Origin: Liolophura sinensis
Taxonomy: Eukaryota > Mollusca > Polyplacophora > Chitonida > Chitonidae
Direction of reading: 5' to 3'
NCBI RefSeq assembly: GCF_032854445.1
Contig: NC_088307.1
Location: 21,280,017-21,344,016, forward strand
Length of the DNA stretch: 64,000 nucleotides
Part shown: piece by piece, positions 29,161-57,914 of the stretch
How positions within the stretch are numbered: the first letter of the stretch is position 1
Layout of the letters: each line of letters opens with the position of its first letter
Translations under genes and position numbers: made by a program
Notes under the pieces: model-generated
What the model saw: the letters and a program-made list of their open reading frames with translations, nothing else
Databases searched by the model: none
What the model was told of the DNA's origin: nothing

Positions 29161-29202
29161 CGAGGAATAGCAGCAAGTGCAGCTTGATTACATATTTAGG
29201 AA

Positions 29203-31925
29203 TCACCCAAAGTGTTCAACAAGGTCATCATTGTTGTCATTTACTGGAATTTCTTGCCAGAATTTCCTCTTAGCACCGGGGAATGAATCGGCCAGTTTCA
29301 GAATATTCTGGCGTTTCACGCTAGGAATTCCTCTTGGTTCATTCTGTGTTGGTGGTGTAAAGTCCAGTCTGAACTTGGGTTTAAGAAAGTCAACTTCCTG
29401 GTATATGTAGTTTCCTTCAAAACCCTCCTTAAACCACATTGCGCGTGAACCTTTACGAAATTCTGCCACTGATATGGAGCTGAGATGAGGTAGCGTTACG
29501 TTCTTGGACTTTCTATTACGGTGACCGTCCTCAAATTCATAAAAGTCATTGTATTGCATTGTGATTGGCTTGATCTTAGTTCCCGATTTGTCACACAAAT
29601 CTACGAAGTCCTGAAAATTACAGGACTCAGGACATTTCTTCATTTTCCTTCCGATGCAGCCATGGACGCTGTCTGCACGCATAAAAGTGTGTCCCCTTTC
29701 AAAATACTTCATTGTGATACTTTGTGGGCCCCAGGGTTGATTGACACACCAACACAACACCGTGTAAAGGACCCAGTTTTTGTTTTGTCCCGTGCAGTTG
29801 TCTGCCCAGAATATCACAAAATCTGTCTCACAAAGGCACAAACACTTTATATATGTGGAGGCAACGTCAACTCCTAATCTACCCCTGATAGCCTCATGCC
29901 ACAAAATAACAGTCACCGTCTTCTTTTACTGATGCAAATGTCTCATTGAAGACAACTAATCTGCTAACAAAGAAATGTTCTTTGATGGTCATTTTGGGAA
30001 GGAGGATAACCTTTTGCATATCTACAGTAAATATACTGGTGTTTTCCTTATCAACAGCACCATCGTGGTCTTCTCGATAATGGGTGCGAGCTGCTTTTAC
30101 TTTCTCGTTATGATCTCGGCCAACTTTGCATTGTTCACAAACATTGACATCATGAGCTTCATCAATCCTTGCAGTACACTTTGTACTTTGCACAAACGTC
30201 ACAATCGTCCTGTGATGGTTTGCCAAAGGCAATGTTTTCTGGTTAAAACACCCGCTGATACACAATGTAACTAATGTCCCCATGCTTCGACTTACAGTCT
30301 TCCCACATGGCGGTGATTGTTAAATGTGGTTCAAGATACCGCTTGTTTGGGGCATTCTGGATCTTATAGTGGCTAATCTGGGGATGATAAGAGATAATAT
30401 GCTCCCGAATTAAATCTTTATCAGCTTTGTTTTTCGGAGCTGACTTTCCACGATTGTCTTTCATCAGACTCCCAATGTCACCTGACTCTTTTGCCTGTTA
30501 CAAACTCAGAAATCATGCCGTCTGTTTTCAGTCCTAGTGTTCTTAGGAACATGATTTTACAAACTGATTCCTTTGTAGTTGATAGTGGCAATGAGTAGAT
30601 AAGTAAATGAGAACGTTTATATTGCTCTTTGACATTTTTTCTGCTTTTCACTGGGGTAACAAGAATGTGGCTATCAAGCCACAACCTTCTTTCGGAAAAA
30701 GACAAATCCCAGAAGGATTCATTAATGAGAACCCTCTGTTCATTTGTGAATTTAGCCTGACAATTCTTCCTACATGTGTCCTGACATCCATCAAGTAGTG
30801 GGTACTTGGCCTTGTGGTAGGATTTCTGGTCTTCAATTCGGCGCCTTTTCCTACAAAGAAAAGGCAAATTATCAATTAAGCATTCTATTCCACATGAAAT
30901 ATATGTGAAAAGAAGACATTTTGACTTACCTGAATGAATTACTGAGCTTTATATTTAAAAATTCATTGGCTACACGAATTACTGGGATATGAAAATAATT
31001 TTATGTTACCTTATTTGCTACCCAGTTGCTGGTTATTTCACCATTTAAAATATTTTCCACTGTGAAAGTTACAATTATATACTTTTAAAGCCAGTATTTT
31101 TTTCACTAATTCACAACGACTGTATATAAAAATGGTCTATTTATGGAAGATTGATTGATTAATAGCAGCTTTACGCCGTTCTTAAGAATATTCCACTCAT
31201 AGGATGGCGTGCCAGCATTATCGTGGAAAGAAACCGGGCAGTACCCACGGGACCTTCGCACGTTAAGTTGGAAACAAAGCCATTGATAGGTGCATATGAA
31301 CTCTCAACCTCCTTGGTGCGAGACTACAGTGGTCGTTGCGCTGCGCAACTGTATTTCCCGTGTATTTGTCATGTTTATGGTAAAATGCTGACAACTTGAT
31401 GGTAAAAGTTTTGAGTGTAGCCTTTACTTACTTCGGCCTTGAAACCTCTGGCTGCGATTGTTGAGGGACTGCATTCATTTCCACGTCATCGAGATCATCA
31501 GAGCGGCTCGTGGTACTCACGGTGACAGTCTCAGCTACTGTAATATTATGACCTTCATCCTCATTTCCAGGGCATTGGTCACCAGCAGGCATCGCGAGGC
31601 TTTCAATGTTTTCATAATCAGGGCCCTCATCATTGGTTATGTCAAGCTCTTGGGTGAATATAGCAGACATATCGGTCGTAGAATCATCTGTCATTTCAAC
31701 TGTCTTAGCAGGAAAGGGTTCAAAATAGCATCTGGCGCCCAAGCTACTCGCAGACTCGACTGTAGTCATGGTAGTAGCACTATCAGGCATGTTTACATTG
31801 GTGCCTGTGCCGGATTTTTCCTTCTGCACCAATTTGTCTGCCTCAAACGACACTGTCTTGTCACCTTCTTGGTGCCTAGCCTTCTTCAGTGCCAACTCTA
31901 GCATTAGTTTCCCACGTGATGCCAT
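29203..31925 (-). pseudogene. Broken transposase-like gene with an ADNCTGQNKN core
   Basis: Two exons are visible: 31925-31432 (ATG start, acidic Ser/Thr-rich, donor GTAAGT) and 30850-29203 (acceptor TTTGTAG), which join in frame as RPK-KRRRIED. Exon 2 has an N-terminal CxxxCRKNCQAKF cysteine segment with ERRLWLDSHI, then APNKRYLEP, a VCEQCK cysteine pair, and FWADNCTGQNKNW, a motif typical of a widespread invertebrate transposon-derived family (I associate it with a DDE-type nuclease; the assignment is from memory). The frame is broken by shifts near 30485, 30165 and 29905 and a TAA at 30243. The original frame resumes for the last 230 residues and ends VEHFG. It should be inactive. I give no repaired protein. 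Confidence 0.75.
31148..31352 (-). mobile_element. SINE-1 copy nested in the transposon's intron
   Basis: Diverged minus-strand copy (TTACGCCGTTCTTAAGAATA, then ATTATCGTGG and GAAACCGGGCA) lying between the two transposase exons. It must be younger than the transposon or have travelled with it. Confidence 0.7.
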
Positions 31926-32068
31926 TTTACTAACAGTACTAGCAATAAATATTCAGAAAACGTGAGAACATCCTGACTGAATTGTCTTTAAAAAAGTTGT
32001 CCAATTTGTTGTGATCACATGACCAGAATTAGGTAATGTGATTGGTTTAACTCATATGAGAAATAATT

Positions 32069-37830: not shown

Positions 37831-38793
37831 ATACGTTTACAACATAATATCAGTCGTTTTACTGGCTTTATTTACGTATGACCAGATGGTTTTAAAAGGT
37901 GCAATAGTTCAAGATTTGTCTCCCCTTTCCTGTTAACCGTCTTGCCTTTTTGCTTTTATCCATATGCGTCGGCGCTTTTATCCGTGCGCATGTCCGTGAT
38001 TGAGACAGTATTTATCGGTGTGCGTGGCGTGACTCTGTCCTTTGAGGGAATACGCTTCCGTCTTCAGGAACAACTACAACGCAATAAATATACAAATGCA
38101 AAGTTAAATAAATGCTATTTTGCAACGTACTGATTAAGGGATTAGGGTGTACATAAAGGCAAAACAATGTGTCTCAAATGGAGGGTAACATCGTGTACTA
38201 CCAGGAAAAATTTTAAAAAAAAAGAATTAATTGCTAAGGGGAGTTTTCGAGACCAGTTATTCCAAGGTTTTATCACATTATTTTAAGCATCCAAAAATAA
38301 GTTAATTAAAACTTTTCAGAATGATCCTAAGGTAGCTCATGAGAGATGATTTTACAGAAAATTATTTTTTGGGATAATGTTCTGTGGATAAAAAAGGGAA
38401 ATACTTGTCAAGAAAACGATGTGACGTCACACTCAGATATGACCCGCCATCGAATTTTGTTCTACTATCAATGATTTTTTTTTTGACATGTTGTAAAAAT
38501 ATAAATGAAAATAGGCCTAGTTTGGGGGGAGAGTTTTTCACGGCGCTTTAAATGGTGCTGATATTGTCGCATCTTTTATGTCCACTTAAATAAATAAAAG
38601 TTTGCAGAACAATGACATATAGACACACACTGATCATGTCTTTGATTGAAACAGATGAGATTTACATGTATGACTGTAAACTAACCAAACTTTACCTTCC
38701 ACAATTTGTAAAAAAGAACAAAAAAGAACAAAACAGGCGAAACAAATGTATGAAAGGGCGATGCCAAAGTACAAATGAGCTGACCCCTTCCGT

Positions 38794-41289: not shown

Positions 41290-42349
41290 TGTACAGGACA
41301 CATGGGACTAAACATACGCATAACTTTAGGTGCGTTTGCAGTAGGTACTCACCGCTTCCCAGTAACGGACGAATTCCAGGTCGGTCACAATGTTGTCACC
41401 TGTTTAGGGGTTTGAGAGGAAGCTCTGGGTTAATACGCAAAAATCTATTCAAGACTGTCGCGGTGAACACGTTTGTGGGTATAAGAAACCGAGAAGAGAG
41501 CAGAGGGTATTCACAGCACTTCGCCATGATAAAACTCCTGATTTCAAGGCGCGATAAAGCAGGCGGGACCTGGGTTCGAAATTATGACCTCAGTGGTTAC
41601 ACTATGTAGAAAATTTCGGGCAGGCTCCGTTATAGTTCACATGGACAGAAATGGTCCAGAAAATAATGTGAATATATTTATCTACTTGATTTATCTGCAC
41701 AAGTTAACGATAAAAACATTAAAAGCCTATGATGGCCATAATTTTACATAGTTAGGACAGGAGTGGAAAACTCTGTGAATGAGTTAGTTGTTCTCATGAC
41801 TTAGACGAAAAAGAACATTGGAATGTTTTCTAGCTTTGCATTTCTGATTTTTTACCCCTCTACATTCATTATTCACGAACAAAAATCCACAAATAACTCT
41901 GTCATACTGAAAACTACCTCTTTTTGTTCAGTTAAATTTTAAAGCTTCTGCTTTGAAATTGAAATTGAAATTATTCGGAATTACAAGTTTCCAGTGTAAT
42001 GTAATTAAGGCCTCGGCTGTGTAGTATATTCTTCATTGCTCCCTTTTCAGTCATGTTTTGGGAGCAAACTAGCCGAGTATTACTTATCCATTTCCTGGAG
42101 AACAACTAGTAGAGGGGTAGCCAACTAATGTTGGTAATGAATATACCTTCAATATCAGCATCATCTCTTCCATATTCTTCAATATACAATGCGCAAAGAT
42201 ATCACCGGTACTTCAGAAGAAATTCAGAAATCAGTCTATATGCTTAGCCCATCACCACAGATATAAACGCACGAACGCAGTCACAGTCTTTCATACACGG
42301 ATAAACAGTATTCCCATATCCGAATCTGAGAGTTTGCTGCAGCTAGACG
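41290..42349. other. No gene seen
   Basis: AT-rich sequence downstream of EF-hand gene 1. I found no polyadenylation signal of the AATAAA type on the minus strand close to its stop codon. Confidence 0.45.
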
Positions 42350-42522
42350 CTAATTACCGTCTTCGTCCATCTTTTTATAGAAAGCATCGTAATCGGCGAC
42401 CTCTAGTTTGTGATCGTTGTTGTTGTCGTATTCGTCGTAGAGGGCTTGCGCCAAGTGACCCATCAAAGGGTTTGCCCGCGTAATGTAACAGACATATTCG
42501 TGGCGCTCGATGATCTTGTCAT
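42350..42522 (-). CDS. EF-hand gene 1, exon 3 (EF-hands 2 and 3)
   Basis: Acceptor TTTTTCAG, then DDKIIERHEYVCYIT to DEDGN and TAG. The sequence GAC-G/GTAATT just before the stop is a possible donor at the same place as a better donor in gene 2. Confidence 0.88.
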
Positions 42523-44800
42523 CTGAAAAATGATCCACAAACACTTGTTTCTTAATCATACTCATTGAACAATTTTCAGTCAATTTTATTTGATTGCTGT
42601 TTAACGCCATATTTTCACGTACACGATGGTGGAAAGAGGGAACTACAACCCTCTCTTACTTCTGAAAAAAAAAGCAATAATCTGTTAAATTTAAAAGAAA
42701 GTCTGTTTTCCGAGTGATGCTGGAATGTATCTCTGCATATTATTCTGTACAGCACACATATTCTGTTAATTCAACACAACGATTCTGTTAGACTACCAGG
42801 ATGTTATGTTGAACATAACACAATATTGTGTTACAATACATTCTAGCTTCACTCAGACTTTCTGTAAAAATTAACAGTCCAGCTTAAGACGATGTTTTGT
42901 AAACGGACGACAGTTCGTTCCTCTCCGGTAGACTGAGCGCAGAGATACGCAATTACATGTAGTCACCTCTACATCGTCTGGCTTCCTCTCTGGCCGTACG
43001 CGAGAAGGTTTGGCTGCAACCGGCTTGGTCGCGGGTTTCACCCCGTTCCCCGGGCTCCCAGCATAATGCTGGCTGCCGTCGTGTATGTGAAATATTCTTG
43101 AGTACGGAGTAAAACACCAATCAAATAAATAAATAAATCAATAACTAAAATGGTCTTTGTCAGAATTTTTCAGAGAAATCGACTATTATACATTAGAAAG
43201 GACAACACAATCGCCCACCTCTTTAGGTCAAGAGAATCTAATGCTATAGAAGACAAAAAACAAACTTTTTTACCGTGAGTTGTTTGGGAATACCGTATGG
43301 GAATATAAGAGAGCATTTAAACGTCAGTGGAATTGACATACTTACCATTAAAGTCGTACACGACGAAAACCTGATCGAACTCGTGCGCAGTTAAAAAACC
43401 GTCGTTGTTTAAGTCGTTGTTGACAAACATAATAGCAGCACTAAGATTGTACGGGCGCAGATCAATTCTGTAACAACAATAACAACAAATGCAACAGCAA
43501 CATTTCACATAGCGAACGACAACAGACTTCAAAATGTCATGGCAATTCAAAATTATGTGGAAATATAATATAATTTATAACATTTGTCAATGATTTCCCA
43601 CTTGGCTCATGCATTTACAGGTCCACGCAGGATTAGCCGTATTAGCAAACGGCGAACCTATTCCACTAGTAACTGAGCCAACGTGAAAATCATTGATAGT
43701 TGACAATTTTATTAATTATAGCTTACTATGTTTATATTAACAAAACGTGGATGGTCATCTATCCCGATTTCACATCTCACGTGTGTTTGGTACAAGCTCA
43801 TTGGTCCAGTTAGATGATATTGTCCGAGTTAGATGATATTGGCCCGGTTAGATGATATTGGCCCGGTTAGATGATATTGGCCGAGTTAGATGATATTGGC
43901 CCGGTTAGATGATATTGGCCCGGTTAGATGATATTGGCCCAGTTAGATGATATTGGCCCAGTTAGATGATATTGGCCCTGTTTGTCATGAAAATGATTGA
44001 AATCGTTTCCTGTGTATTATGCCAATAACATCAACAGTTAATTAATAATGTAGATTGTTAGACTGAGTTATATTGCGTAAGCCAACATTCATATTGCTAA
44101 GAGCAAGGCGGCGTTCGATAGGCTTTCTAAATGCATAAACACCACTGACACAGGATTAATAAACAAATATGTACCGTATGATAAGCTACCATGACAGCCC
44201 GCATTGCTTTCGTTAAAGGAAAAGGCAACAAAGAATGTAACCTGTGTTAATCAGGAAGAGGGCTGGAAACAGATCTAAACGGCCACGGTCACTTTTTCTG
44301 ATATGTTGGTTACTCACTAAATAAATTTTTAATTGTTATTTCTTAAGAAGTCCATCGGATGCGCCATATTAAAGCAACCTGAAACACAATGTCGAGTCTT
44401 TCGTGCCACACGCATGTATGGTTAAAAGACATATAGAGATATGATCTCGTTTGATTGATCAATGCATACATACACTTGGTCTTTTGCTTTGTCTTTTCTT
44501 TTAACAGTTACTGCTGATAGAAGGTCCGGTTCACTCGCTTAGGACGACGACAAAAATTTAATCATTAATTCGTCCAAACTAAGACAAGCTGTGGAAATAT
44601 TTCCAAAATCCGCTCACTTTCTCTTAGGATTCGTAAGTCCATTCGTACGTATAACCGTAAGTCCAGAACGCTGTCTGGGTTACGTCAGCGAAACATAAGT
44701 AAATGGTTTAAGCATATTCACTAGGTATATATCGTATATGCTGTACTCACTGAGCGGACACCCCAGCGAACAGCGCCCCACAAGCAATCAAGAACAACAT
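42350..44800 (-). CDS. Secreted EF-hand protein, gene 1 (114 aa)
   Basis: Joining 44800-44751, 43467-43346 and 42522-42350 on the minus strand gives 345 nt with GT..AG introns. Residues 1-16 (MLFLIACGALFAGVSA) are a signal peptide. The intron splits codon 17, the first mature residue (Gln), so the signal forms its own exon. The mature part starts QIDLRPYNLSAAIMF and carries EF-hand loops at 35-46 (DLNNDGFLTAHE), 55-66 (DFNDDKIIERHE) and 90-101 (DNNNDHKLEVAD). A fourth loop would start at D110 by the same 20-residue spacing, but the frame stops after DEDGN. It has one cysteine (VCYIT). It is small, acidic and presumably calcium-binding outside the cell. Such proteins occur in invertebrate mineralised or extracellular matrices, but that role is inference. 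A paralogue lies at 52210-55694. Confidence 0.85.
42590..42650 (-). mobile_element. SINE-1 tail fragment in EF-hand gene 1 intron
   Basis: TTTTATTTGATTGCTGTTTAACGCC and a decayed central part. It lies about 70 bp upstream (in transcription direction) of exon 3. Confidence 0.55.
42663..42882. mobile_element. MITE, second family member
   Basis: Inverted arms AATAATCTGTTAAATTTAAA and TTTCTGTAAAAATTAACAG with internal GAGTGATGCTGGAATGTAT and ATACATTCTAGCTTCACTCA, matching 33256-33510. Confidence 0.75.
42963..43138 (+). mobile_element. SINE-1 copy, 5'-truncated
   Basis: From CTGGCTTCCTCTCTGGCCGT to AATCAAATAAATAAATAAAT. It lies in the second coding intron of EF-hand gene 1. Confidence 0.8.
43346..43467 (-). 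CDS. EF-hand gene 1, exon 2 (EF-hand 1 and start of 2)
   Basis: 122 nt between acceptor TTGTTACAG and donor GTAAGT. The same length and phases are found in the paralogue at 54677-54798. Confidence 0.9.
43803..43980. repeat. 19-bp minisatellite, about 9 copies
   Basis: Unit GTTAGATGATATTGGCCCG, nearly uniform. It lies in the first coding intron of EF-hand gene 1. The entry sequence CTCATTGGTCCAGTTAGAT recurs alone at about 47949. Confidence 0.93.
44751..44800 (-). CDS. EF-hand gene 1, exon 1 (signal peptide)
   Basis: 50 nt: 16 codons plus CA, donor GTGAGT. It is preceded by a 5'UTR stretch (44801-44824) behind the acceptor TTTTTGCAG, so there is an upstream non-coding exon. Confidence 0.85.
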
Positions 44801-45275
44801 GGCTGTGTCTCTCAACTATAAGGCCTGCAAAAATACAAAAAATGAGTATAATTCTTTATTACATATATTCAAATTACTACTGTGAATATCGTTGTACATC
44901 TGTGGAATATTATGACAGTGTCGTGGCGAACATGAGTGCACCGAAACTGAAACTCAGACGAGTACAGTATAGCGTACATAGTATTCTGTTCCCCCGTAGT
45001 CAATGGCTGTGGAGCGTTGGTAATGGTAAGTGGTAGACGATACGTTCACTGAGAATCACTTGTCCCACGTTACACGTGGGAAAGTTAGTGAATAACTTGC
45101 CAAAGGTCGTGATTCGCGTTAGGCATGTCGGATTCTTCCGCTCCTAAAAGTTCACCACTATCACACAAGGAAAAGAAAGCAATGAGTATGCCTTTAAGTT
45201 ATAAATAAATAAATAAATAAATAAATAAGTATTCTGCATAGACATACTTGAAAACATATTGTCCTGAGATCATGG

Positions 45276-45276
<1 letters not shown>

Positions 45277-45318
<42 letters not shown>
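45277..45318. repeat. (TA)n microsatellite
   Basis: Pure TA run of about 42 bp. A short AAATA array is at 45205-45230. Confidence 0.9.
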
Positions 45319-45321
<3 letters not shown>

Positions 45322-45607
45322 CGCCGACTTTAAGTAATTCTAATTCTGTTGCGCAAATTATATACGGCAAAAACTTTGTACTCGTAGCCAAATTCAGAAG
45401 TAACTTTGTCTTAAGGTTAAATGCTACCCGGTGACATGATTTTACTATAAATGGACGAAAGAAAACTGATTGAGACAGTGGATCCAGGAATATAATTCAA
45501 ATATACTGGAGACATTGTTTATTTAATGAGACCACGCCAATTGCAAAGCATACAGTTCTAAGCTAGTCCTGGCAGACTGTCTATGATAAACTCGACCCTG
45601 TACTTAC

Positions 45608-45660
45608 CAGTGATCCAAGATAACATGCGGCATAGGTTGGGTCAGTAACAGTCTTATATT
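45608..45660 (-). promoter_or_regulatory. Candidate promoter and 5'UTR exon of EF-hand gene 1
   Basis: On the minus strand AATATAAGA (about 45652-45660) precedes, by about 45 bases, a consensus donor CTG/GTAAGTA at 45607. The acceptor that would receive it is at 44824, 24 bases before the ATG. Together they suggest a TATA-driven short non-coding first exon. Confidence 0.5.
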
Positions 45661-46899
45661 TCGAAAAGCTTATCTCCCAGAAGTGGTATTTCGTGCGTGT
45701 TTGACCTACTAAGTCTAAATCACACAGCTAAAGACGGGCTCTCGAAGCTGACATTCTCCATGTTGTAATCTGTGAACATTTATTATTATTGATCTTATTG
45801 TTATTTAATTCAAGATGGTTTTTTTAGCTTATACAACGACGGTCAAGTTGATGATTTTTGACGAACAGGTTCAAAAATCTAACCACTTCCGAAGAATCCC
45901 ACGGGAAAACGTGAAGCCAAATTTTATTAAATTTCGTCAAGCAGTTAAGGAGATATCATACCGACAAATATTAACCAGTTACAACATGGTCAAAGACACA
46001 AACAAACAAACCAACATGCATCAAAATATAATCAGTTATTAAACCGCTCATATGTAAAGCTTGGGACCAAAAACTTGGGACCGGAAGTATTGTATTCCGC
46101 CAAGCAGTTCTGGAGGTCGCCAGTGATAATACATGGCGTCTACAAATTTCACTTTGCAGCATTTGATAGATCCGTGTAAAATGTTATGATTTCATCCTAC
46201 CTTAACATAGATTCAAAAACTAGTGTGTCAAGGTTACTCGGTCAAGTTAAAGTTTCTTACAGTGAGTATGACGCTCACATGCACACAAAAGACACTTGTG
46301 TTGAAATCTAACACAACAACTTGAGTTCTTTTCATTCAACACAGAAACACGTGTTAAATAAATATGAACTATACACCTGTGTCACAAAATAATAAAGCTC
46401 AAACCTGTGTTGAACCAAAGGAATGAGGTAATTTATGCAATACAACAAATACTTGTGTATTTTTCTTTTCACACAAGCTACAGGTATTCAAATATGGCAC
46501 AAGACTTCTGTTGGAAAGAACATAAGTTTCTGTTCACACAACACAAGGGGAAGTTGACAAATATGGATAGGGCTCTAAAAATGCAAGCCTGTGATAATAG
46601 ATCCATTCATGGTTTTGAAACAACCTTAAAGTTTCTGATGGCCTTTGGTTGCTCACCAATATAGCGCGTTGACCTCAATGCAGCTGTTCTCGGTGCACAG
46701 ATAACGGTTAGCTTTTGACATGGGAGCTGTCCATAATTATCTTTATATAAACTTGCTTTACGAAGACTATTCTCTGAGTAATTGAGCGATCCTAGTTGGC
46801 ACAAAAAATCACCTCGGCCACATTTATGCATTTATAGCTGTATATCCAATTTCAGACACACGAACTCAGTCTGTCGGCAATGGTGTCGGTGGCATAAGG

Positions 46900-47145
46900 C
46901 ATAGAGTGTCCACCTCGAAGCCGGAAAACATGGGATTTCCAAATCTTTTTAAAAGAATGGCACTTTTTGCTGCCTCGCTTGGCACTCAGTACAGAGAGGT
47001 TAGGGCAAGAAAAACAGGACCGATACGTCAGCTGTGAGCATAGTGTGACTGCGAGGTGGGGTATCATGTCTGGTGACTTTGGCATGATAATACAGCGGAG
47101 GCAGCACTTCGATGACATATACATATTTACACACAGCTAATAACT
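46900..47145 (+). mobile_element. SINE-2 copy
   Basis: GTGTCCACCTCGAAGCCGG, then TGCCTCGCTTGGCACTCAGT, then GGGGTATCATGTCTGGTGAC, in the same order as at 58695-58980. Confidence 0.65.
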
Positions 47146-47307
47146 TACTGTCGTCAAATGGTTTATAAATACGACGTAAAAACCGGAGCATACATAAATA
47201 GAATTGAAATTATATTGTCTTGATACAATATAGTAAACAATGATATGGATGACATCTACTAATGGTGGAGTGGAAAACGGAATGTTTTTATTATTTGTAT
47301 TTATTTT

Positions 47308-47555
47308 TAGGCGATTAGCACGCCATTGCAGCGCAATCACCCAGGAGCCTCTCACCAATGCGGTCGATGTGAGTTCAAGTCCAGCTCATGCTGGCTTCCT
47401 CTCCAGTTTTTGATTTTTTTTTTAAAATCCTCTCCAGCTGTATGTGGGAACGTCTGCCTGCAATTTAGGGATGGTCGTAGTTTTCTCCACTATAATGCTG
47501 GCCGCCATCGTATGAATGAAATATAACGAAAAACACCAATCAAAATAAATAAATC
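47308..47555 (+). mobile_element. SINE-1 copy with a small internal insertion
   Basis: Body CACCCAGGAGCCTCTCACCA. After CTTCCTCTCC there is a poly-T-rich insertion and a second CCTCTCCAGCTGTATGTGGG, that is, a local duplication. The tail is AATCAAAATAAATAAAT. Confidence 0.8.
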
Positions 47556-47570
47556 TATTTTTGTGAGGAC

Positions 47571-47597
47571 ATGTCCTTGTACAAAGTACAAGGACAT
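47571..47597. other. Perfect 12-bp stem inverted repeat
   Basis: ATGTCCTTGTAC, loop AAA, GTACAAGGACAT, just after a SINE-1 tail. No T-run follows and no function is assigned. Confidence 0.7.
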
Positions 47598-48289
47598 AAG
47601 AAGATCTAGCAGTATCCTACAAAAGTAAGTTAGGTTAAAACAGACTAATACCTGACATCCATTTAAAAGTACATACCAATCCTACTGGTCTTAAAACCAA
47701 TCCACTTATATAGGACGATGACAGGTTCATATTAAGGAGGCTATACCAGAGATGTTTGGCCAAAAGTCCATATTCACAATTCAAATTTAATTTTCTGAAT
47801 TCACCAGTAATAGCTCGAGTTATGGCCTTTTAGAAAATGTCAGTCTCATACTTAATATACTGTTAAGACAATTCTAAAGTTTGAAAAGTTATAATGCGAC
47901 CCGCTTCAAAAAATTTGGGAACTTATATATGTGTGTATGGCGGTACAGGCTCATTGGTCCAGTTAGATATATATATATGTAAACCCTCTTTAACTGAAAT
48001 TTGTCGAAGTCTATTTGTCGCGTGGCTTATTAATGATCACAGTAAAACTGCAAGGCATTTTAAAATTACATTAAATTTTAAATTATATTAAACTTATAAC
48101 GATGGAAAATTGATAATGATTTTGTTTTCGTACATAGCGGCTCTTTTCAAGCGAATGATGTGCGCCAAGTTCAGATGATGCAAACTTTCGTTTTTGCCTC
48201 TGTAATTATTCACTTGTGATACACTTTTCTGTCCTAGCTTTAAGCGTGGAAAATCTTATGTCATAAAAGTTTGTGAACAATGCAAAATA

Positions 48290-48600
48290 ATCAAAGACGT
48301 AGAGCACAGAGAGTAAAACAAGAGCTGTAACGATAATGTGATATCTGACAAATGGTCACACCGATGAATTGCGGCCTCTTGTCAATTTACCTCAGTTAAG
48401 GTTTTATTCTAATTGTTCATGTAAATGCATAAATAGTAGCAATTTACACGTCCCCTAAAATGCAGTGATGTTGATTGCAATTTATAGAGGTCACTGGTCG
48501 AGATTTACTCAAAAGGCTATGTTGTCTTCACATTTAGCGTAGAATCACATTAAAACGATGCAAAGAGACCAGACGGGAATGCTTAGTTCGCCAGTAGTTA
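48290..48600 (+). repeat. Repeat R1, copy C
   Basis: AGAGCACAGAGAGTAAAAC, CTCTTGTCAATTTACCTCAG, AGGTCACTGGTCGAGATTTA and GGGAATGCTTAGTTCGCC occur in the same order as in copy B. This copy is uninverted and fairly complete. Confidence 0.65.
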
Positions 48601-48809
48601 TAGCCGGAGGAACATTGTGAAGGGATGACCGTCGTCATATAGGCCGACCGAACCACTAATATTCGACTTGAGCGTGATTCGCGAGGGCCACGCGATTTTG
48701 GGAGTTCTGTTAACAGATTGTGGTCACACTCAGGAATTTTTCATTTACACGATGGCAGTCAGCTTTATGGTTGGAGGAAACAGGATTGCCCCAGTGGCCC
48801 CCAAAAGAG

Positions 48810-48885
48810 GGATAATCTACAAATTTGGTGTCCAAGACCAGGTATGAAACGGCACCTCGTGTGTGCTGTAGGTATTGTAAGGCAA
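48810..48885 (-). mobile_element. SINE-3 fragment
   Basis: GATAATCTACAAATTTGGTG, then CACCTCGTGTG, is the reverse complement of the SINE-3 body and head. Confidence 0.4.
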
Positions 48886-49135
48886 ACACCTTTAACTCAC
48901 AGGAAACAGCAATTAACTTGTTCAGACTAGAAATCTGGATCAGTCGAGTTGTAAAGATTCTCGTCTTTATATTAATTTATTAGATTGGTCTTTAACAAAC
49001 TACAATTCGTTTAAAGTAAACCTCTATATATACGGCGCAGATCATTTTCATGGGTGAAGGAAACTGATGTGCCCGGGAATAAACTGTCGACATTTGGCAA
49101 ATAACTCACGAGATTTTTCACATATGACGTGCAGA

Positions 49136-49377
49136 ATTGGTGGTTAGCGTGCTAGCGCAGAACAATGAACCAGGAGCCTCTCACAAATGCGGTTGCTGTG
49201 AGTCCATGCCCAGTTTATACTGGCTTCCTCTCCACTTATACATGGGAAGCGTCTTTCAGCAACCAGTGGGTCATCGTGTGTTTCCTCGGGGCGGTGCCCA
49301 ATTTCCTCCCACTGTAAGCTGGACGTCGTCCAACAAGTTAAATATTTGTCGACGTGAAACACATTTGAAATGAGTAA
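49136..49377 (+). mobile_element. SINE-1 copy, diverged
   Basis: GGTTAGCGTGCTAGCGCAG, ACCAGGAGCCTCTCAC and a decayed central block and tail. Confidence 0.7.
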
Positions 49378-49477
49378 ATAAAAATTTCCAGTCTAAAGTA
49401 GGGATTAAACCACAATATGTTGTGTGAATACACTAAAAGTCAAGCTTTATAGTTACGGCTATGTGCAAGCCCTACCC

Positions 49478-50215
49478 CATCCTGCCCAACCGTACTCCGT
49501 CCTACCCAACCCTACCCCGCCCTACCCAACCCTACCCCATCCTGCCCAACTGTACTACGTCCTACCCAACCCTACCCCGTCCTACCCAACCCTACCCCAT
49601 CCTGCCCAACTGTACTACGTCCTACCCAACCCTACCCCGCCCTACCCAAACCTACCACGACTACTCCATCCTACCCTTACCCCATCCTATCCAATCCTAC
49701 TCCGTCTACCCAACCCCACCACTCCCTACCCAACCCTATCCTGTCTTGTAACATCCTACCCCATCCTACCTTGCCTAGCCCTACCCTATCCTGTAACATC
49801 CTACCCCATCCTACCCCATCCTACCCCATCCTACCCTACCTAACCCTACCCCATCCCACCCTACCCATCCTACCCTACCTAACCCTTCCCTCTCCTATCC
49901 TACCTAACCCTACCCCATCCTACCCTACCCTATCCTACCCTAACCCTACCCCATCCTGTCCTACCTAACCCTACCCTACCCTATCCTACCTAACCCTACC
50001 TCGTCCTACCCTACCTAACCCTACCCTATCCTACCCTACCTAACCCTACCCCATCCTACCCTTCCTAACCTTAACCCCATCCTATCCTACCTAACCTTAC
50101 CCAGTCCTACTTTACCTAACCCTACCCCGGCATACCCTAACCCTACCCAGTCCTACCCTACCTAACCCTACAATATCCTACCCAACCCTGATCCATCCTA
50201 CCCAAACCTACACCA
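49478..50215. repeat. CCTACC-rich satellite, strongly strand-asymmetric
   Basis: About 740 bp of C/T/A with almost no G, built from CCTACCCAACC, CCTACCTAACC and CTACCCCATC blocks of variable period. The complementary strand has frequent GGGGTAGGGT-like G runs and could form G-quadruplexes. It resembles degenerate CCCTAA telomere repeats but is not a pure telomeric array. The proline-rich open frames over it are artefacts. Confidence 0.9.
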
Positions 50216-50291
50216 CCATAAGCCCACCATTCGTAGCTATAAAAAAACAAAACACAAAAAACAGCAGTTTGACAAAAAATTTTGACAAAGT

Positions 50292-50497
50292 TTTATTGAC
50301 AAGTTGTATAAATTTTGGGTAATCCGATCGTACATGTAACCTTAACCTGGGACTCGAGCTTTATCTGGGCCTCTTTATTTGCTCTCCCAAAGTTTTCGTC
50401 TCTAGCCGTGGGCATGGCCGTGACTGAGGCAGTACTTGTCGTTGTGTTGCGGGTGCTTTTGACCGTGCATAGAGAAATTTTCCTTGCTCGCGAATAA
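50292..50497 (-). other. Candidate terminal exon with polyadenylation signal
   Basis: On the minus strand the acceptor GTTTCACAG/TT is followed by about 200 bp of non-repetitive sequence ending in AATAAA at 50297-50292. It lies 1.7 kb downstream of EF-hand gene 2 in the same orientation and could be its 3' end. Joined to the alternative donor at 52283 (phase 1) it would add about 45 basic residues. It could equally belong to nothing. Confidence 0.35.
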
Positions 50498-50633
50498 CTG
50501 TGAAACAAAAACAAACGTATTTCATCAGCAATAAATCAGCTTAAAACTTAAATGTTAACCTGAATAGTGTTAAAAGAGGAAAAAAATGCATTGATTCAAA
50601 TTTCAGATGAATAGGCGTAAAAATTTATTATTA

Positions 50634-50757
50634 AATATGGTCTTAAATATTCTTTTTTGAATTTTCTTCATGGAGGAAAGAACACCATTTTTGTATGGTG
50701 GGTAACTGGGACCACCTCTTGGTATGTATCGCATTTGCATAATAATGATCCAAAAGT
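50634..50757 (-). repeat. Dispersed repeat, copy 2 (partner at 1715-1835)
   Basis: Minus strand reads ATACCAAGAGGTGGTCCCAG, then ACCCACCATACAAAAATGG and AAGACCATATTTAA. Confidence 0.55.
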
Positions 50758-50759
50758 TA

Positions 50760-52209
50760 TGTATGACACAACACTTTCCAGGAACCACATTATCTCTTGC
50801 GTCATTACTATGAAAATTTTCGTATCATTTTGGTAAGGTGGGCTCGGCTGCTCTACCCAAAATTAAGATCATCTCCTTTTTTCACAATAGTTGATTACAC
50901 TTCCTTTCTGTACATTATTAACTTTAACGCACAAATTGAGTGAAGGCTCCTAAGCAACTTGTCAATTGCCCTTTAAATGGTGTACGTCTCATTAGTTTCA
51001 ATCAAATCATTCCACGAGTTAATCTTTTTCCGGATGATGCCGAGCGCGGCAGACTAAAATTGATAATGGCGGTTAGTGAAGGCTACCCTGCTGCCAATGT
51101 AATAGGTTCATTTGTGACTTTATTATTCTTTATTACATAGACTTTATTATTTTTGTGATCTTTATTATTTACGAATAACTAGGTGATTTTAAGTCAGAAG
51201 TACTGCAGGACGAAAAGAAACGCCTTTTTGTTGCATGTAAAAATGCAAATTTAAGGCTGCATGTCTACTATGTAAGTGTCTTGTTACCGGGCCTTGTAAG
51301 GCGTTCAGCATTTTTTTTTCTGTGGGAGAAGAAGAGGGGGGAAGCGACACTTCATCGATTCACTTCCTGCCTCATAGATTTCCTACTGATGTCCTTACCA
51401 CCTCCCAGAAACGTACAAACTCCAAGGCGCTGACAACATCGTCATCTGTTGAAAGAAGAATATTTCATTTTTAAAATTTTGGCATATATACACATCACCA
51501 GTTCCAATTTCACTCTCCCCAGCTATCAAATTCTTTATCCATGACAGATTTGTGCGTGTTACTACCGGTCAAAGACACAACGAGCTCCTTATAGGTGCTA
51601 TGAATTGTGAGAATTTTTTGCTTATTCGAAGGCGGTGAACATTTTGGGTGAAAGAAACCGGTGTGATCGGAACAAAACAACCAACCTAGGGCTAGTTAAT
51701 GACGGACTTGTGAAGAACAGATATGCATATTAAATATATACTACTGAATGATGAGAGAAGTGGTCTTAGATTTTGAACAAACGGTCACGTGATAGTCGTC
51801 GACCGCTTACATTCTGCAAGGTAACACAAACAGTGAGAGCAGGTAAAATCTACAAATTCCCTGTCCAAGGCCGGGACTGAACCGCCACCTCGTGTGCCAA
51901 CTCTAATATTTCCATCTCGTTTCCCGCTCCTGTGCCTTGCTCAAGAATATTTCAGCATTATGGTGGGAGGAAACCCACGACCATCCGAAGACTGCTGACT
52001 CAGGACCCACTCAGGATATGTTAATCTCAGTATAACAATATATGTACATATACAATCTGTAAAATAGTCCCAAGAGTTATTGTCAGTATGACACAATGTA
52101 ACGCGAAAAAATTATATAAATAAACAAATAAAAACTCAGGCTGCGACGCATGCGAATCTCAAGAATGTAACCCAGGAATCAGGAATATAAGAAAAAAAAA
52201 CACCAATTA
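50760..52209. other. No gene seen
   Basis: Unique sequence with a SINE-3 fragment (-) at 51845-51915 and a SINE-1 fragment (-) at 51930-52000. Confidence 0.5.
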
Positions 52210-52448
52210 CTAACAAAAATGCTTGTTCCAATTGCAGCTAAAAATTTTGTATACATAATCTTCATTACTGCTATCACACTCACTGTCTTCATCCATCCTG
52301 TTAAAGAAGTTGTCGAAGTCGTGTCTTTCTAATCGGTGGTCGTGATCCATGTCGTATTCGTCGTACAGACTCTGCGCTAAGTTGCCCATGAAAGAGTTGC
52401 TCTTGGTTATGTAACAGACATACTCATGGCGCTCGATGATCTTGTCCT
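52210..52448 (-). CDS. EF-hand gene 2, exon 3
   Basis: Acceptor CATTTCTCAG, then DKIIERHEYVCYIT, loop 3, the degenerate loop 4 and a 15-residue tail. Exon 3 is only about 40 bp from a 51-bp minisatellite that fills the preceding intron. Confidence 0.85.
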
Positions 52449-55400
52449 CTGAGAAATGAACAGGGTGATATCAGCCACGAACGAAAACCGAGATGCGGAT
52501 ATTGAGGATACTGGGATTTATCAGCAACAAACGGAAAAGCAGATGCGGATATTGAGGATACTGGGATTTATCAGCCAACAAACAGAAAAGCAGATACGGA
52601 TATTGAGGATGTTGAAGTTTATCAGCCAACAAACGGAAAAGCAGATACGGATATTGAGGATATTGAGGTTTATCAGCCAACAAACGGAAAAGTAGATACG
52701 GATATTGAGGATACTGGGATTTATCAGCCAACAAACGGAAAAGCAGATACGAATATTGGGGGTATTAAGGCTTATCAGCCAACAAACGGAAAAGCAGATA
52801 CGGATATTGAGGATACTGGGATTTATCAGCCAACAAACGGAAAAGCAGATACGGATATTGGGGGTATTGAGGTTTATCAGCCAACAAACGGAAAAGTAGA
52901 TACGGATATTGAGGATACTGGGATTTATCAGCCAACAAACGGAAAAGCAGATACGGATATTGGGGGTATTAAGGCTTATCAGCCAACAAACGGAAAAGCA
53001 GATACGGATATTGAGGATATTAAGGTGTATCAGCCAACAAACGGAAAAGCAGATACGGATATTGAGGATGTTGAGGCTTATCAGCCAACAAACGGAAAAG
53101 CAGATACGGATATTGAGGATGTTGAAGTTTATCAGCCAACAAACGGAAAAGCAGATACGGATATTGAGGATGTTGAGGTGTATCAGCCAACAAACGGAAA
53201 AGCAGATACGGATATTGAGGATGTTGAGGTTTATCAGCCAACAAACGGAAAAGCAGATACGGATATTGAGGATGTTGAAGTTTATCAGCCAACAAACGGA
53301 AAAGCAGATACGGATATTGAGGATGTTGAGGTTTATCAGCCAACAAACGGAAAAGCAGATACGGATATTGAGGATATTGGGATTTATCAGCAACAAACGG
53401 AAAAGCAGATACGGATATTGAGGATATTGGGATTTATCAGCAACCAAACGGAAAGCCAGACACGGATATTGAGGATACTATCAGCAAACAAACGGTATTT
53501 AGCCACATACGGGTAGTCAGATACGAATATTGAGGATACTGGGATCTATCAGTGAACAAACTTAAAGACAGATAGTTATATTGAGGATTCTAGGATTTTT
53601 GAGAAAACAAACGGAAAACAGATAGTGATATTGAGTTTAGTGAGATTTATCAGGAAACAAACAGAAAATCGAGGCCTTTCCACCCGGCAATGCCTTAGAC
53701 TCCATGAATAAACATACACATTATCTCTGTAGGAACGCTTAACGTCGTACGCGTTGCCAGAGGCAGACTATGTTGTTTCATAGCTGATGAGATCCATAAT
53801 TAAGATAGACTATCACCTCATGCAAAGACGTAAAATGTTCTGCCTCATGCTAAAAGTAGTTTGGAGTAGTGTTTTAATGATTTATTTATTTATAACTTCC
53901 TGACCTCAAGCCGTAGCGAGAGCTGGATTCGAACACATTACTTCACTGGTCGGGGACGTTTAATAATGCAGTCTCTCCACGACAGACGATGTGAATCTGT
54001 CTATTCTGTGCTATGTCGAAAGACACCTGCTTTTCTGCTACGATTGAAAAGTGATGTAATCCGCGTTATACAATGAGTTTTTCATTGGTTCAGGGGGTGT
54101 GTCTTCATAAATGCTCATATGGCTTATTATTTATTATTTATTTATTTATTTATTTGATTGGTGTTTTACGCCGTACTCAAGAATATTTCACTTATACGAC
54201 GGCGGTCAGCTTTATGGTGGGTGGAAACCGGGCAGAGTCCGGGGGAAACCCACATGGCTTATTAATCTCAACTTGTCAACTATCGTGTTTCGGGCGAAAA
54301 AAGAGAAATACCTTAGCAATTATTGGCGTCACGAAGCACCCACAAGATTACTAGAAATAAGATTCCCACCAATGAATTTGGTCGAATGTGACTCATATTC
54401 ACCTACCCGCTTCATTCTGTCACAATAACTTTACAACAGCAACATGTTTCGGATTACGATAGTAGCGTTGTTTTCATTGACAATTCTGGATTAATTAATT
54501 CTGTTAATTAGCCATCTATTTCAGCTTTTGTGTTCTCTCAACGGAGGCAGTAAACGGAAGACATCTGCACGAGGAGAGATGCAAATGAGCCACACGTGTT
54601 TTGACGCCTTTCATGTCATCTCATCGCCGCTGTCTTCACAACAAGAAAAAAGAAGATTTATTCAGCTTAAACTTACTGTTAAAATCGTAAATTTCAAACA
54701 CATGGTCGAACTCTGTTTGCGTCAGCTGGTTGTCATTGTTGAGATCATTTGTAACAAACATGATGGACGCTGTCAAGTTGTACGGCCGTAGGTCGATCCT
54801 GAAAGTGAAGAACATAGAAGACACTGTCGCATTAAACGTTGAACGGCTTAAAGGGTACATAGACAAGACTTCCAAAACCAAGATTATGGTTTCAAATGAG
54901 ATTGAGAAAAATCACTATCATCTTTGGGGTATAGTTTGCATCTTTTAATAATCCCTCTATTTTACGATCCGTCAGTTGTCAGCCATTTTCGGAAATGGTG
55001 TCATAAACGAACATACTGGGAAGGCAGGACCTGTATAGCATCCATCAACGTTGACGCCACGGCTGCTAGCTACTTAATTTCCGGGCTGACCACTGGGGCC
55101 TTAAGAAATGTAAAATTTAGAGTCCTTTTCAATTCCAAGAAAATCGATGATCTTTTTGCGCTTCTAAATGTTAGGACTCACTTTTAACTGCATGCCAAAC
55201 AATAAAAACCAAACACTTCATGTATCTGTTTAAATGAAGAATGATTGAATGAATCACTATGTCTTCACCCACTTCGACGATCCACCATAATGTTGGCCGC
55301 CGTCGTAGAAGTGAAATATTTATCTTGAATATGGCGTAAAAACATGAATCAAATAAATAACTAAACACTTCGGCAAGTTTAAACCTTGAGATATTGAGCG

Positions 55401-55694
55401 ATTTTCGCGTTACGTGTTTTTTTTTTCTCTTCAGCCAATATGACATATACAAGTACGTCAGACAGGGAAAGGCTCGCCGTTAACTTTCCAAAGTTCCGTG
55501 GTCTACTCCAGGCATTCTGTTTTCTTCCACACATAAATCAGACGGCTAAATATGTAAATATAAATATATTCTTGAGTACACTATACTACATAGTACACTG
55601 GTATAATGTGTGATCAAAGTAAACAAATAAAAATGAAATCTTACTGCGCCGAAGCTGCGGCAAAAGCAGCTGCCAAAGTCACGAGTAACAACAT
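52210..55694 (-). CDS. Secreted EF-hand protein, gene 2 (136 aa)
   Basis: Joining 55694-55645, 54798-54677 and 52448-52210 gives 411 nt with GT..AG introns at the same positions and phases as gene 1. Signal peptide MLLLVTLAAAFAAASA, then QIDLRPYNLTASIMF. EF-hand loops are at 35-46 (DLNNDNQLTQTE), 55-66 (DFNKDKIIERHE) and 90-101 (DMDHDHRLERHD). At 110-121 the acidic DEDSECDSSNED sits where a fourth loop is expected; it lacks the central glycine and the hydrophobic residue at position 8, so binding there is doubtful. The tail after 121 has two cysteines. Loop 1 has Asn in place of the Gly of gene 1. An alternative donor (GAC-A/GTGAGT at 52283) could bypass the last 24 residues. Clearly a tandem duplicate of gene 1, predicted to be secreted and calcium-binding. 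Confidence 0.85.
52490..53510. repeat. 51-bp minisatellite in EF-hand gene 2 intron
   Basis: About 20 copies of a 51-bp unit (GCAGATACGGATATTGAGGA, then TTATCAGCCAACAAACGG). The period is 17 codons, and long open frames exist on both strands (up to 308 codons). It ends just before the exon 3 acceptor and degenerates at its far end (53510-53680). Translation is not supported: no start context, no splice sites, and several frames are open at once. Confidence 0.95.
54130..54253 (-). mobile_element. SINE-1, 5'-truncated, with target duplication
   Basis: Tail and part of the central block only. The direct repeat ATGGCTTATTA at 54119-54129 and 54254-54264 shows that truncation happened at insertion. 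Confidence 0.9.
54677..54798 (-). CDS. EF-hand gene 2, exon 2
   Basis: 122 nt, acceptor CACTTTCAG, donor GTAAGT. Encodes IDLRPYNL through YDFN. Confidence 0.9.
55270..55365 (+). mobile_element. SINE-1 tail copy
   Basis: GATCCACCATAATGTTGGCC to AATCAAATAAATAAC with an inserted TTATC. Confidence 0.75.
55645..55694 (-). CDS. EF-hand gene 2, exon 1 (signal peptide)
   Basis: 50 nt, donor GTAAGA. 5'UTR 55695-55713 lies behind the acceptor TATTCACAG. Confidence 0.85.
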
Positions 55695-55789
55695 TCTGTT
55701 TTGTGGGTCCGATCTGTGAATACAAAAGTTAACTGTCGTTACCCGCGAGCTGGATGAGAGAAAAAGGTTAATGTGTACGACAGGAAGAT

Positions 55790-55975
55790 GACCCAGGAGC
55801 CTCTCACCAATGCGGTCGCTGTGAGTTCAAGTCCAGCTCATGCTGGCTTCCTCTCCGGCCGTAAGTTGGAAGGTCTGCCAGCAACCTGCGGATGGTCGTG
55901 GGTTTCCACCCACCATAATGCTGGCCGCCGTCGTAAAGTGAAATATTCTTGAGTACGGCGTAAAACACCAATCAA

Positions 55976-56025
<50 letters not shown>
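55790..56025 (+). mobile_element. SINE-1, 5'-truncated, with 28-bp target duplication and (TA)n tail
   Basis: Starts GACCCAGGAGCCTCTCACCA and ends AAATAAATA(TA)n. The 28-bp direct repeats at 55762-55789 and 56026-56053 (core AATGTGTACGACAGGAAG) are identical. A second TA run follows the right repeat. Confidence 0.92.
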
Positions 56026-56030
<5 letters not shown>

Positions 56031-56049
56031 GTTAATGTGTACGACAGGA

Positions 56050-56103
<54 letters not shown>
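55980..56103. repeat. Two (TA)n microsatellites flanking a target-duplication copy
   Basis: 55980-56025 grew from the SINE tail. 56053-56103 follows the duplicated target, whose last bases are GAT(AT)n. Confidence 0.92.
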
Positions 56104-56109
<6 letters not shown>

Positions 56110-56358
56110 TTCCTAACATTGATGATGTTTAGAAAAATGATGTTTCTTAAATTCTTAAAAGGAATGATTTACACCATGACTGTACGAAGAGCTATCAAAG
56201 TTCAAGTAATCAAATACCAAAATGTCTTAGTGGCTACCATATGATTTGCAACCCTATGAGTAACCCTACAGCAGAAAATTCCCACACACATACGCCAGCT
56301 CCCGGCTCGAGCTTGTCTCTGTACTGTTCCCAACAATGAAACACCGTCGAAGCTTTGG

Positions 56359-56510
56359 CGTGGGAAGGTCTTACAGCAGCCTGCGGATGGTCGTGAGTTT
56401 CTCCCTGTCTCTGCCCGGTTTCCTCTCACCATAATGCTGGTCGCCGTCGTATAAGTGAAATATTCTTGAGTACGGCGAAAAACACCAACCAAATAAATAA
56501 ATAAATAAAT
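56359..56510 (+). mobile_element. SINE-1, 5'-truncated, with target duplication
   Basis: Direct repeat CGAAGCTTTGG (56348-56358) and CGAGGCTTTGG (56511-56521) flanks the copy. The tail is (AAATA)n. Confidence 0.88.
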
Positions 56511-56529
56511 CGAGGCTTTGGTAGGCCTA

Positions 56530-56745
56530 CTACCACGCGTCAGTCCAAAACGTTAAGATGTCGGTCATACAAGAGTTCACAGTGCGATTGGGGATAAACG
56601 AACTGTTACAGTCTGTTTCTTTTAGCGAGTCGCCTATTTTCAGCTGGTTGTAAAACCAGTCATACTCGCTACCAAAATTGCCTGTAGTCAGTGAGATGTA
56701 ATAACCCAAGGCATACACATCCATAAGCCTATACTGGAGGTTCAT
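56530..56745 (-). other. Unrecognised open frame, possible exon
   Basis: 72 codons on the minus strand with a possible acceptor CCTCCAG before TATAGGCTT and a pyrimidine-rich tract upstream. It has two cysteines, an N-x-S and an N-x-T sequon, and ends FWTDAW before TAG. The start (DMNLQYRLMDVYALGYY) loosely resembles the third EF-hand of gene 2 (DMDHDHRLERHDFDNFF), but the other loop residues are gone. It lies inside the proposed 5'UTR intron of gene 2. Confidence 0.25.
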
Positions 56746-57349
56746 ATCCGTGCAAAGAAAATGAAGTTAGAACGCTTTTTTCTAATTTATAATGGTAAAC
56801 CCCATAAGCATTGTTTCGACACCAAGAACGCATTGCTTCGGGTGACGTCGTAATTATTCTGAAACAAGTGGCATGCTGGACACTGAGCGTGAAGAGTAAT
56901 ATGTTTACAACAGGTTTAGAGTGACGTCAATAGAGCTTAGATGTTGTCACTTTTCCTCAAAACATACCGGACTCCGCTGATTCCCCAGGATCCCACTTGT
57001 TTTTGAATGACTATGACGTCACCCGAGGCAGTGAGTTCTTGCCGTTGAAACTGTGCTTACGCAGTTTAACATTTTGAATTAGAAAAAGCCTTCTAACTTT
57101 ATTTTCTTGGCAAGGATATGAATTTTCAACACACCGATGTGTAGAATTAGTGTTCTTACGTGTCACTGTCAAAAGCAATCTTTGTATCGGGTATGACTGA
57201 TTTTACAGACAGCTGAATATAGGCGACTCAGCAAAAGAAAGACTATAGCATCCCTGAAAGAGCTCACGCAACCACACCTCGCTCACTGAATTGTCAATTC
57301 ATGTTTCAAACGAGAAACCGTGAATTCGTGTATTCACAATTTTACGAAA

Positions 57350-57475
57350 GTTGGGTCATTTACTTGCCAATGGTCGGTGGTTTATGTCGGGCACTCCGTT
57401 TTGCCCACCCACACAGCTGATCGCCACCATTAAAATTTTTTTGAGTATGGCGTCAAGTATAAATCAAATAAATTA
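57350..57475 (+). mobile_element. SINE-1 fragment, old
   Basis: GCCAATGGTCGGTGGTTTAT, then TTGAGTATGGCGTCAAG and AATCAAATAAATT. Confidence 0.6.
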
Positions 57476-57860
57476 ACGACAGCAACGATTTAAGCGACAG
57501 CAATGACACTTATCACTAGAGTGTCATGTTTGGTATCTTTATCAGCCTACGTCAAAGGGGAAGCCCTGTTAACGTGACAACATTAAAGGCAATGGCTTGG
57601 TGCCATGACACATCGGCCATCGTAGTATGACAAAAATAACGACAAAATGACGACGAATCCCAGCCGGAACCAAGAGACACGTTACAATAGTTTACATTCT
57701 GGATTTTCATGGTATTAAACTTTTCACAAACGCAAATACTATCTAACGAAAACGCATGAATGACATCGCTTTTACGATCGACGCTTGTAGCGATCTTCGT
57801 AAATTTTCAGCAATGTACACAGGTATACCAGAGAGAATGAACGACAAAAGACGTACTTAC

Positions 57861-57914
57861 CTGCAATTAATGGCAAATGACAGGTGGCAAGTCCTTTGGA
57901 TTGGGTTTTATATC
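57861..57914 (-). promoter_or_regulatory. Candidate promoter and 5'UTR exon of EF-hand gene 2
   Basis: Minus strand GATATAAAAC (57914-57905) is followed about 44 bases later by a consensus donor GCAG/GTAAGT at 57860. That is the same arrangement and spacing as upstream of gene 1. The matching acceptor would be 55713. Inferred from layout only. Confidence 0.4.

Follow-up and report, generated by a model that had tools for sequence, protein, structure and literature searches.

Can EF-hand loops that start only 20 residues apart belong to intact genes, and what kind of protein would carry them? The question arises from two neighboring genes, here called A and B, in a 64,000-nucleotide stretch of the Liolophura sinensis genome (contig NC_088307.1, positions 21,280,017 to 21,344,016; "the window" below, numbered from its first letter). 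A first-pass annotation of positions 42350..57914 had described a tandem pair encoding small secreted EF-hand proteins with unusual loop spacing. Both genes lie on the minus strand as tandem paralogs, and their sequences support secreted EF-hand proteins with compact loops. On balance, we consider it rather probable that A and B are functional and belong to a small family whose acidic EF-hand proteins are secreted and are of the molluscan SMP5 shell-matrix kind. The present analysis adds the full gene model, a His-rich tail, the gene family in the genome, and the fixed character of the compact loop step in the modeled members.

Four loops at steps of 20, 35, and 20 residues

Both proteins comprise 159 residues and open with a 16-residue hydrophobic leader that ends in VSA (A) or ASA (B) before Gln17, as judged by hydropathy and eye. 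They share the conserved stretches IDLRPYNL and KIIERHEYVCYIT, as the first-pass annotation had stated. Four loops start at residues 35, 55, 90, and 110 in A and B alike. The 20-residue step already described for loops 1 and 2 is confirmed, and the same step predicted for loops 3 and 4 is found once exon 4 is added. Each loop spans 12 residues, with acids or amides at positions 1, 3, and 5 and an acid at position 12. All four match a PROSITE-type EF-hand pattern at identical positions in the two proteins; 20,000 shuffles of each mature protein never produce more than one match, compared with the four observed.

Paired EF loops of the calmodulin type lie about 36 residues apart. A and B resemble such pairs (PF13499) in their canonical 12-residue loops, in the 35-residue distance between the starts of loops 2 and 3, which is like that of an ordinary EF pair, and in profile matches to many solved EF-hand proteins. 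They depart from them in loops 1-2 and 3-4, which start 20 residues apart and leave a gap of only 8 residues between the end of one loop and the start of the next.

A faulty gene model could in principle create such a step if the protein were of the ordinary calmodulin type and about 16 residues between loops 1 and 2 had been dropped. Introns 2 and 3 do fall inside loops 2 and 4, interrupting both at the same place, after three codons and one base, and a missed small exon could alter those loops. The 20-residue steps are nevertheless independent of the splice model, because in each case a single exon encodes everything from the start of the first loop through residue 3 of the second: exon 2 covers D35 to D55-F-N57, and exon 3 covers D90 through the opening three residues of loop 4, with no junction between. 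This contiguous sequence contradicts a splicing error, as does the recurrence of the arrangement in all nine models from this genome described below. The cloned cDNA of an abalone protein, Hdh-SMP5, likewise places its first two EF-hands at 36-48 and 56-68 (PMC10741955). We give a splicing error virtually no chance of explaining the spacing.

An internal duplication seems to have shaped the protein, which consists of a 55-residue unit present twice: 55 is the best of the 50 self-offsets tested (30 to 79) in both proteins, the length of exon 3 is 55 codons exactly, and loops 2 and 4 are cut alike by introns 2 and 3. The signal at offset 55 remains above shuffles when the loop columns are left out (P 0.010 and 0.003). 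Up to exon 4, the mature parts of A and B have isoelectric points (pI) of 4.19 and 4.31, with 24 and 25 acidic residues and 8 and 9 basic ones. Including the C-terminal tail, which has its own exon, is rich in His (five in A, six in B), and holds one Cys, these values become pI 4.70 and 4.89, 26 and 27 acidic, and 11 and 12 basic residues.

Domain searches place both proteins among EF-hands in general. Pfam EF-hand_1 and EF-hand_6 (PF00036, PF13405) score above cut-off for both, and the calmodulin-type pair PF13499 reaches 23.2 and 26.4 bits, under its cut-off of 30. The SPARC extracellular calcium-binding domain PF10591 stays at 14.3 and 15.9 bits (cut-off 22), and the other Pfam matches, BrxA and DUF7514 (A only), are weak and below cut-off. 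Matches of phmmer to the PDB are weak (best E 0.00053 and 0.0014). A profile of the nine relatives retrieves 322 distinct sequences of solved structures at E <= 0.01, and those listed are general EF-hand proteins. For three of the 60 matches listed, the alignments were compared with the loop positions: two require a 16-residue insertion between loops 1 and 2, and the third begins inside loop 1.

Structure prediction, which the first-pass annotation had proposed, was run on exon pieces with AlphaFold2. The gene A exon 3 piece (two rows) yields a predicted local distance difference test (pLDDT) score of 66.9 and helices at 9-19, 21-38, and 44-57, with helices on both sides of loop 3; the last is a single helix that leaves the end of loop 3 and enters loop 4. 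The spacing and this model favor, without proving, a reading in which adjacent loops share one helix. Three results count against it. In the exon 3 model, helix 21-38 extends past the point where loop 3 begins, which marks the model as imprecise. The exon 2 piece gives a poor model (pLDDT 56.5; helices 9-20 and 28-34), in which the helix after loop 1 spans 28-34 only and gives no support for a single helix reaching loop 2. Foldseek returns 35 matches to the exon 3 model, mostly EF-hand proteins, none of them at E <= 0.001.

Closely spaced loops are also found in bacteria. A pattern scan covering steps of 19-29 only, and biased to GAC/AAC codons, matched at least 118 bacterial stretches. The matches listed comprise 149 placements, with 35 out of frame, 5 containing a stop, and 109 open. 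Both loops are canonical in seven, at steps of 23 (one), 24 (four), 27 (one), and 28 (one); 12 open placements have a step of 20, none with both loops canonical. The bacterial proteins thus share with A and B the order of loop, short connecting stretch, and loop, but show no canonical pair at step 20 among the matches listed. Judged from sequence, short steps occur elsewhere, yet a step of 20 is absent among these few canonical bacterial pairs. A pattern scan of viral contigs for close relatives matched 10 stretches, none of which was confirmed.

Relatives in the genome and structure of the genes

The 609-Mb assembly holding the window was searched with protein A, accepting matches up to E 10. 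The 26 matches include exons 2-5 of A and exons 2, 3, and 5 of B. Others mark a relative on contig C8 (14.091-14.096 Mb) and, some 4 Mb away from the window, a cluster on C13 (17.296-17.356 Mb); three weak matches (E about 1 to 1.6) fall at C13:15.2, 29.96, and 30.02 Mb. No further copy is detected by tblastn in the 100 kb that flank the window on each side. On its plus strand, the C13 cluster (17294001-17344000 and 17352001-17360000) holds four copies in which exons 2, 3, and 5 are accompanied by a candidate exon 4. Several more copies lie on the minus strand, some of them broken or reduced to a tail. Two members are more distant, and the loop steps are unchanged in the one that has exon 3.

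Similarity and splice borders allowed nine models with exons 2 and 3 to be built: A, B, the C8 copy, cluster copies K1-K4 and K6, and the distant member Kd1. Omitted were K5, which has exon 2 at C13:17331899 and a seemingly broken exon 3 at 17327723; K7, which has exon 2 at 17340058 and yielded no exon 3; Kd2 (17358637, exon 2 only, close to the edge of the examined stretch); and tail-only pieces at 17307058 and 17316280. The models of relatives cover exons 2 and 3 plus tails where found, and secretion was read in A and B only. All nine have loop steps of 20, 35, and 20, loop 4 being represented in C8, K2-K4, K6, and Kd1 by its first three residues only. Exon 3 measures 165 nt throughout, and exon 2 varies from 116 to 131 nt. 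Seventeen columns are invariant; 12 are calcium-ligand positions 1, 3, 5, or 12 of the four loops, and loop 1 contributes one more with its position 8. All modeled family members thus share the compact loop step, which is a fixed trait among them and not peculiar to the A/B pair.

Exon 4 candidates have fair donors in K1 and K6 and a weak donor in K2-K4; C8 and Kd1 yield no candidate. Tails are found at 12 places in the genome. With one duplicate and one near-duplicate excluded, the ten aligned rows all retain E6, G12, H15, and C23.

A and B are identical at 105 of 159 residues. Their differences fall at first, second, and third codon positions in 36, 37, and 91 of 160 codons, and nonsynonymous divergence (dN) is 0.26 (NG86) or 0.23 (LWL85), with synonymous divergence (dS) saturated. 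Between the gene regions, blastn reports 23 matches, one coding (exon 3) and 22 outside the coding exons, most of which recur at several sites in the manner of dispersed repeats. The substitutions are concentrated at third positions, and the overall pattern fits an old duplication under purifying selection. Decay of A and B into pseudogenes with EF-hand-like remnants would have a precedent in the C13 cluster, where one copy or more appears broken and some pieces consist of a tail alone. In each of their five exons, however, the two genes keep the reading frame open and the splice signals and phase intact, and dN is far below dS, so that decay seems highly improbable.

Two results from the family count against the favored reading of A and B as tandem members of such a family. 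The strict EF-hand pattern fails in loop 4 of K1 and in some loops of C8, K6, and Kd1, and only 23% of 200 bootstrap trees place A with B, which does not support them as closest relatives. Most of the tree lacks resolution, although five cluster rows group at 79/98; among the window and C8 copies, A and B are the most alike (71% vs 57%). Given the low bootstrap value, the duplication that separated A from B need not be the most recent one for either gene.

The five coding exons (Table 1) have identical lengths and phases in A and B. The second exon of 122 nt is as first described, and the coding segments ahead of it measure exactly the 50 nt that had been assigned to a separate signal peptide exon. 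That figure refers to the coding part; acceptor-like CAGs lie 24 and 2 nt (A) or 19 and 1 nt (B) upstream of the ATG, so that the exon may also include some 5' untranslated region (5'UTR). The earlier exon set was incomplete and missed the last exon with the His-rich tail. Exons 4 and 5 were recovered by comparing the open frames downstream of A and B, where a matched 31-residue segment (E 1.6e-11) corresponds to exon 5. Read-through of exon 4, which gives eight codons and then a stop in both genes, was considered as the C-terminus and dropped because a phase-0 exon 5 with 19 of 31 residues identical was found. Exons 4 and 5 of gene A consequently fall outside the interval 42350..57914, the gene ending 4.4 kb beyond it, and the upper limit of the interval fits the TATA box and donor of a putative 5'UTR exon of gene B.

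Table 1. Positions of gene A and gene B features in the window
Feature	Position	Strand	Description
Gene A coding exon 1	44751..44800	-	50 nt, ends in phase 2; donor GTGAGT
Gene A exon 1 product			MLFLIACGALFAGVSA + first 2 nt of Gln17; cleavage likely before Q17
Gene A coding exon 2	43346..43467	-	122 nt; acceptor TTACAG, donor GTAAGT; loop 1 (residues 35-46) and start of loop 2
Gene A coding exon 3	42358..42522	-	165 nt = 55 codons; acceptor TTTCAG, donor GTAATT; remainder of loop 2 (55-66), loop 3 (90-101), start of loop 4
Gene A coding exon 4	41353..41399	-	47 nt; acceptor AACAG, donor GTGAGT; remainder of loop 4 (110-121)
Gene A coding exon 5	37978..38073	-	96 nt including stop; acceptor TTGTAG; His-rich tail of 31 aa, 5 His, 1 Cys
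Gene B putative promoter and 5'UTR exon	57861..57912	-	TATAAAA at 57912; donor CAG/GTAAGT at 57860; consensus only
Gene B coding exon 1	55645..55694	-	50 nt; donor GTAAGA; MLLLVTLAAAFAAASA + first 2 nt of Gln17
Gene B coding exon 2	54677..54798	-	122 nt; acceptor TTTCAG, donor GTAAGT
Gene B coding exon 3	52284..52448	-	165 nt; acceptor TCTCAG, donor GTGAGT
Gene B coding exon 4	51399..51445	-	47 nt; acceptor AACAG, donor GTAAGG
Gene B coding exon 5	50402..50497	-	96 nt including stop; acceptor CACAG; His-rich tail of 31 aa, 6 His, 1 Cys
Gene B AATAAA	50379		downstream of coding exon 5

Several repeats accompany the genes. Gene B intron 2 contains a 51-bp minisatellite (52469-53477, about 20 copies, 91% match) that starts some 20 bp away from exon 3. 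Because its unit equals 17 codons, long frames stay open on either strand, but these are probably not a gene. A C-rich array of the CCTACCC type lies downstream of gene B exon 5 (49470-50211), and a 19-bp array occupies 43800-43982 in gene A intron 1. The dispersed repeat at 42978-43149 in gene A intron 2 has copies about 82-85% identical across the assembly (best candidates scored), with related copies in gene B intron 2 and elsewhere in the window. Away from the pair, a minus-strand open frame of 240 aa (29206-29925) gives a weak DUF7869 match (22.4 bits, cut-off 26), and the long minus-strand frames nearby (27564-28508, 29897-30319, 30481-30948, 31431-31952) have no Pfam match above cut-off. 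The frames at 27564-31952 are possibly a mobile element.

Probable kinship with shell matrix proteins and possible function

The first-pass annotation recognized no named family; a very similar architecture with the same 20-residue first step has been published as abalone SMP5 (PMC10741955). Among the literature matches listed, this is the only paper that gives a matching architecture. It describes Hdh-SMP5 of Haliotis discus hannai as a secreted EF-hand shell matrix protein of 134 aa with a 16-aa signal peptide, pI 4.31, and 24 acidic and 9 basic residues, and prints EF-hands at 36-48, 56-68, and 112-124; its alignment also includes H. rufescens, Crassostrea, Mercenaria, and Pecten proteins. 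A and B are alike in their signal peptide of about 16 residues, their acidity, and their similar length up to loop 4, and their corresponding loops start at 35, 55, and 110, only 1 or 2 residues away from 36, 56, and 112. The kind thus looks known. Its loop geometry goes unremarked in the literature found; the results, early discussion, legends, and table of PMC10741955 make no comment on the 20-residue step.

The assignment has its difficulties. Hdh-SMP5 has 134 aa and three annotated loops, whereas A and B have 159 aa and four, and it leaves room for only about 4 residues where their 31-aa His-rich tail begins. Homology is inferred here from printed coordinates and properties.

SMP5 relatives, we assume, bear the name insoluble matrix shell protein 5 (IMSP5) in databases, and IMSP5 presumably carries EF-hands. 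Bivalve transcriptomes contain matches called "Insoluble matrix shell protein 5/6", which are named shell proteins (PMC8933548, PMC6641155, PMC8696127). Lottia EFCB1 and EFCB2 are EF-hand proteins reported from the shell as minor components, and EFCB2 has several similar copies in the shell proteome (PMC4094399). Pinctada fucata PFMG1 and related EF-hand genes are expressed in mantle, and three of five new ones have signal peptides (PMC3120837). By description, IMSP5/6 and EFCB1/2 resemble A and B in shell-protein naming and, for EFCB1/2, in EF-hands, and the PFMG1 group as mantle EF-hand genes, some with a signal peptide.

A role in extracellular calcium handling, probably for shell formation, is our best inference. 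The first-pass annotation had raised calcium handling or a biomineral matrix; the idea gains by analogy with Hdh-SMP5, whose expression peaks in mantle and increases at the trochophore and veliger stages as well as following damage to the shell (PMC10741955), and for A and B themselves it is carried by that analogy. The family might instead serve outside the shell, as calcium buffers or metal carriers of mucus, hemolymph, egg fluid, or gut, with Zn or Cu binding by the tail as the main function. Conservation of the tail across family members speaks for such a use, the several copies in one genome suggest diversification, and the Hdh-SMP5 transcript is also found in muscle, ovary, and hemocytes (PMC10741955). 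IMSP6 of Placuna, related to the SMP5 kind by name, is reported as highest in hepatopancreas and intestine. Further reports run counter to a plain shell role: one Pinctada fucata shell proteome yielded no EF-hand domain, and the EF-hand protein in a Perna shell table is a myosin light chain. These contrary papers slightly lower our confidence in a shell function. On the other hand, the nearest described protein is the mantle-enriched, damage-responsive Hdh-SMP5, and the EF-hand proteins reported from Lottia shell and Pinctada mantle point the same way. We therefore regard a use outside the shell as unlikely, though deserving of attention.

For the shell-matrix reading, a working mechanism can be outlined. 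In each 55-residue unit, one short helix would act as both the exit helix of one loop and the entry helix of the next, and loops 1 and 2 would therefore be unable to pair face to face in the manner of calmodulin. Loops 2 and 3 would form a central ordinary EF pair, leaving the outer loops 1 and 4 free to pair mutually or with another molecule. The protein, secreted by the mantle and binding about four Ca2+ ions, would serve as an extracellular Ca2+ carrier or matrix component, and its His/Cys tail may hold a second metal or anchor the protein to the matrix. A bolder version, which we offer tentatively and rate as more doubtful than not, is that the 20-35-20 arrangement represents a distinct EF-hand architecture, with helix-sharing loop pairs, outer loops that pair only between molecules, Ca2+-driven chaining or assembly, and a His/Cys anchor, in a secreted family of ancient origin that would belong to shelled molluscs and perhaps to other lophotrochozoans.

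Both mantle and shell of molluscs are reported to contain EF-hand proteins, yet the way in which these hold calcium outside the cell is poorly understood. A multi-copy family with fixed steps of 20, 35, and 20 residues, traceable by its gene structure, poses the question of whether outer loops pair between molecules, and its copies are natural variants for testing such pairing.

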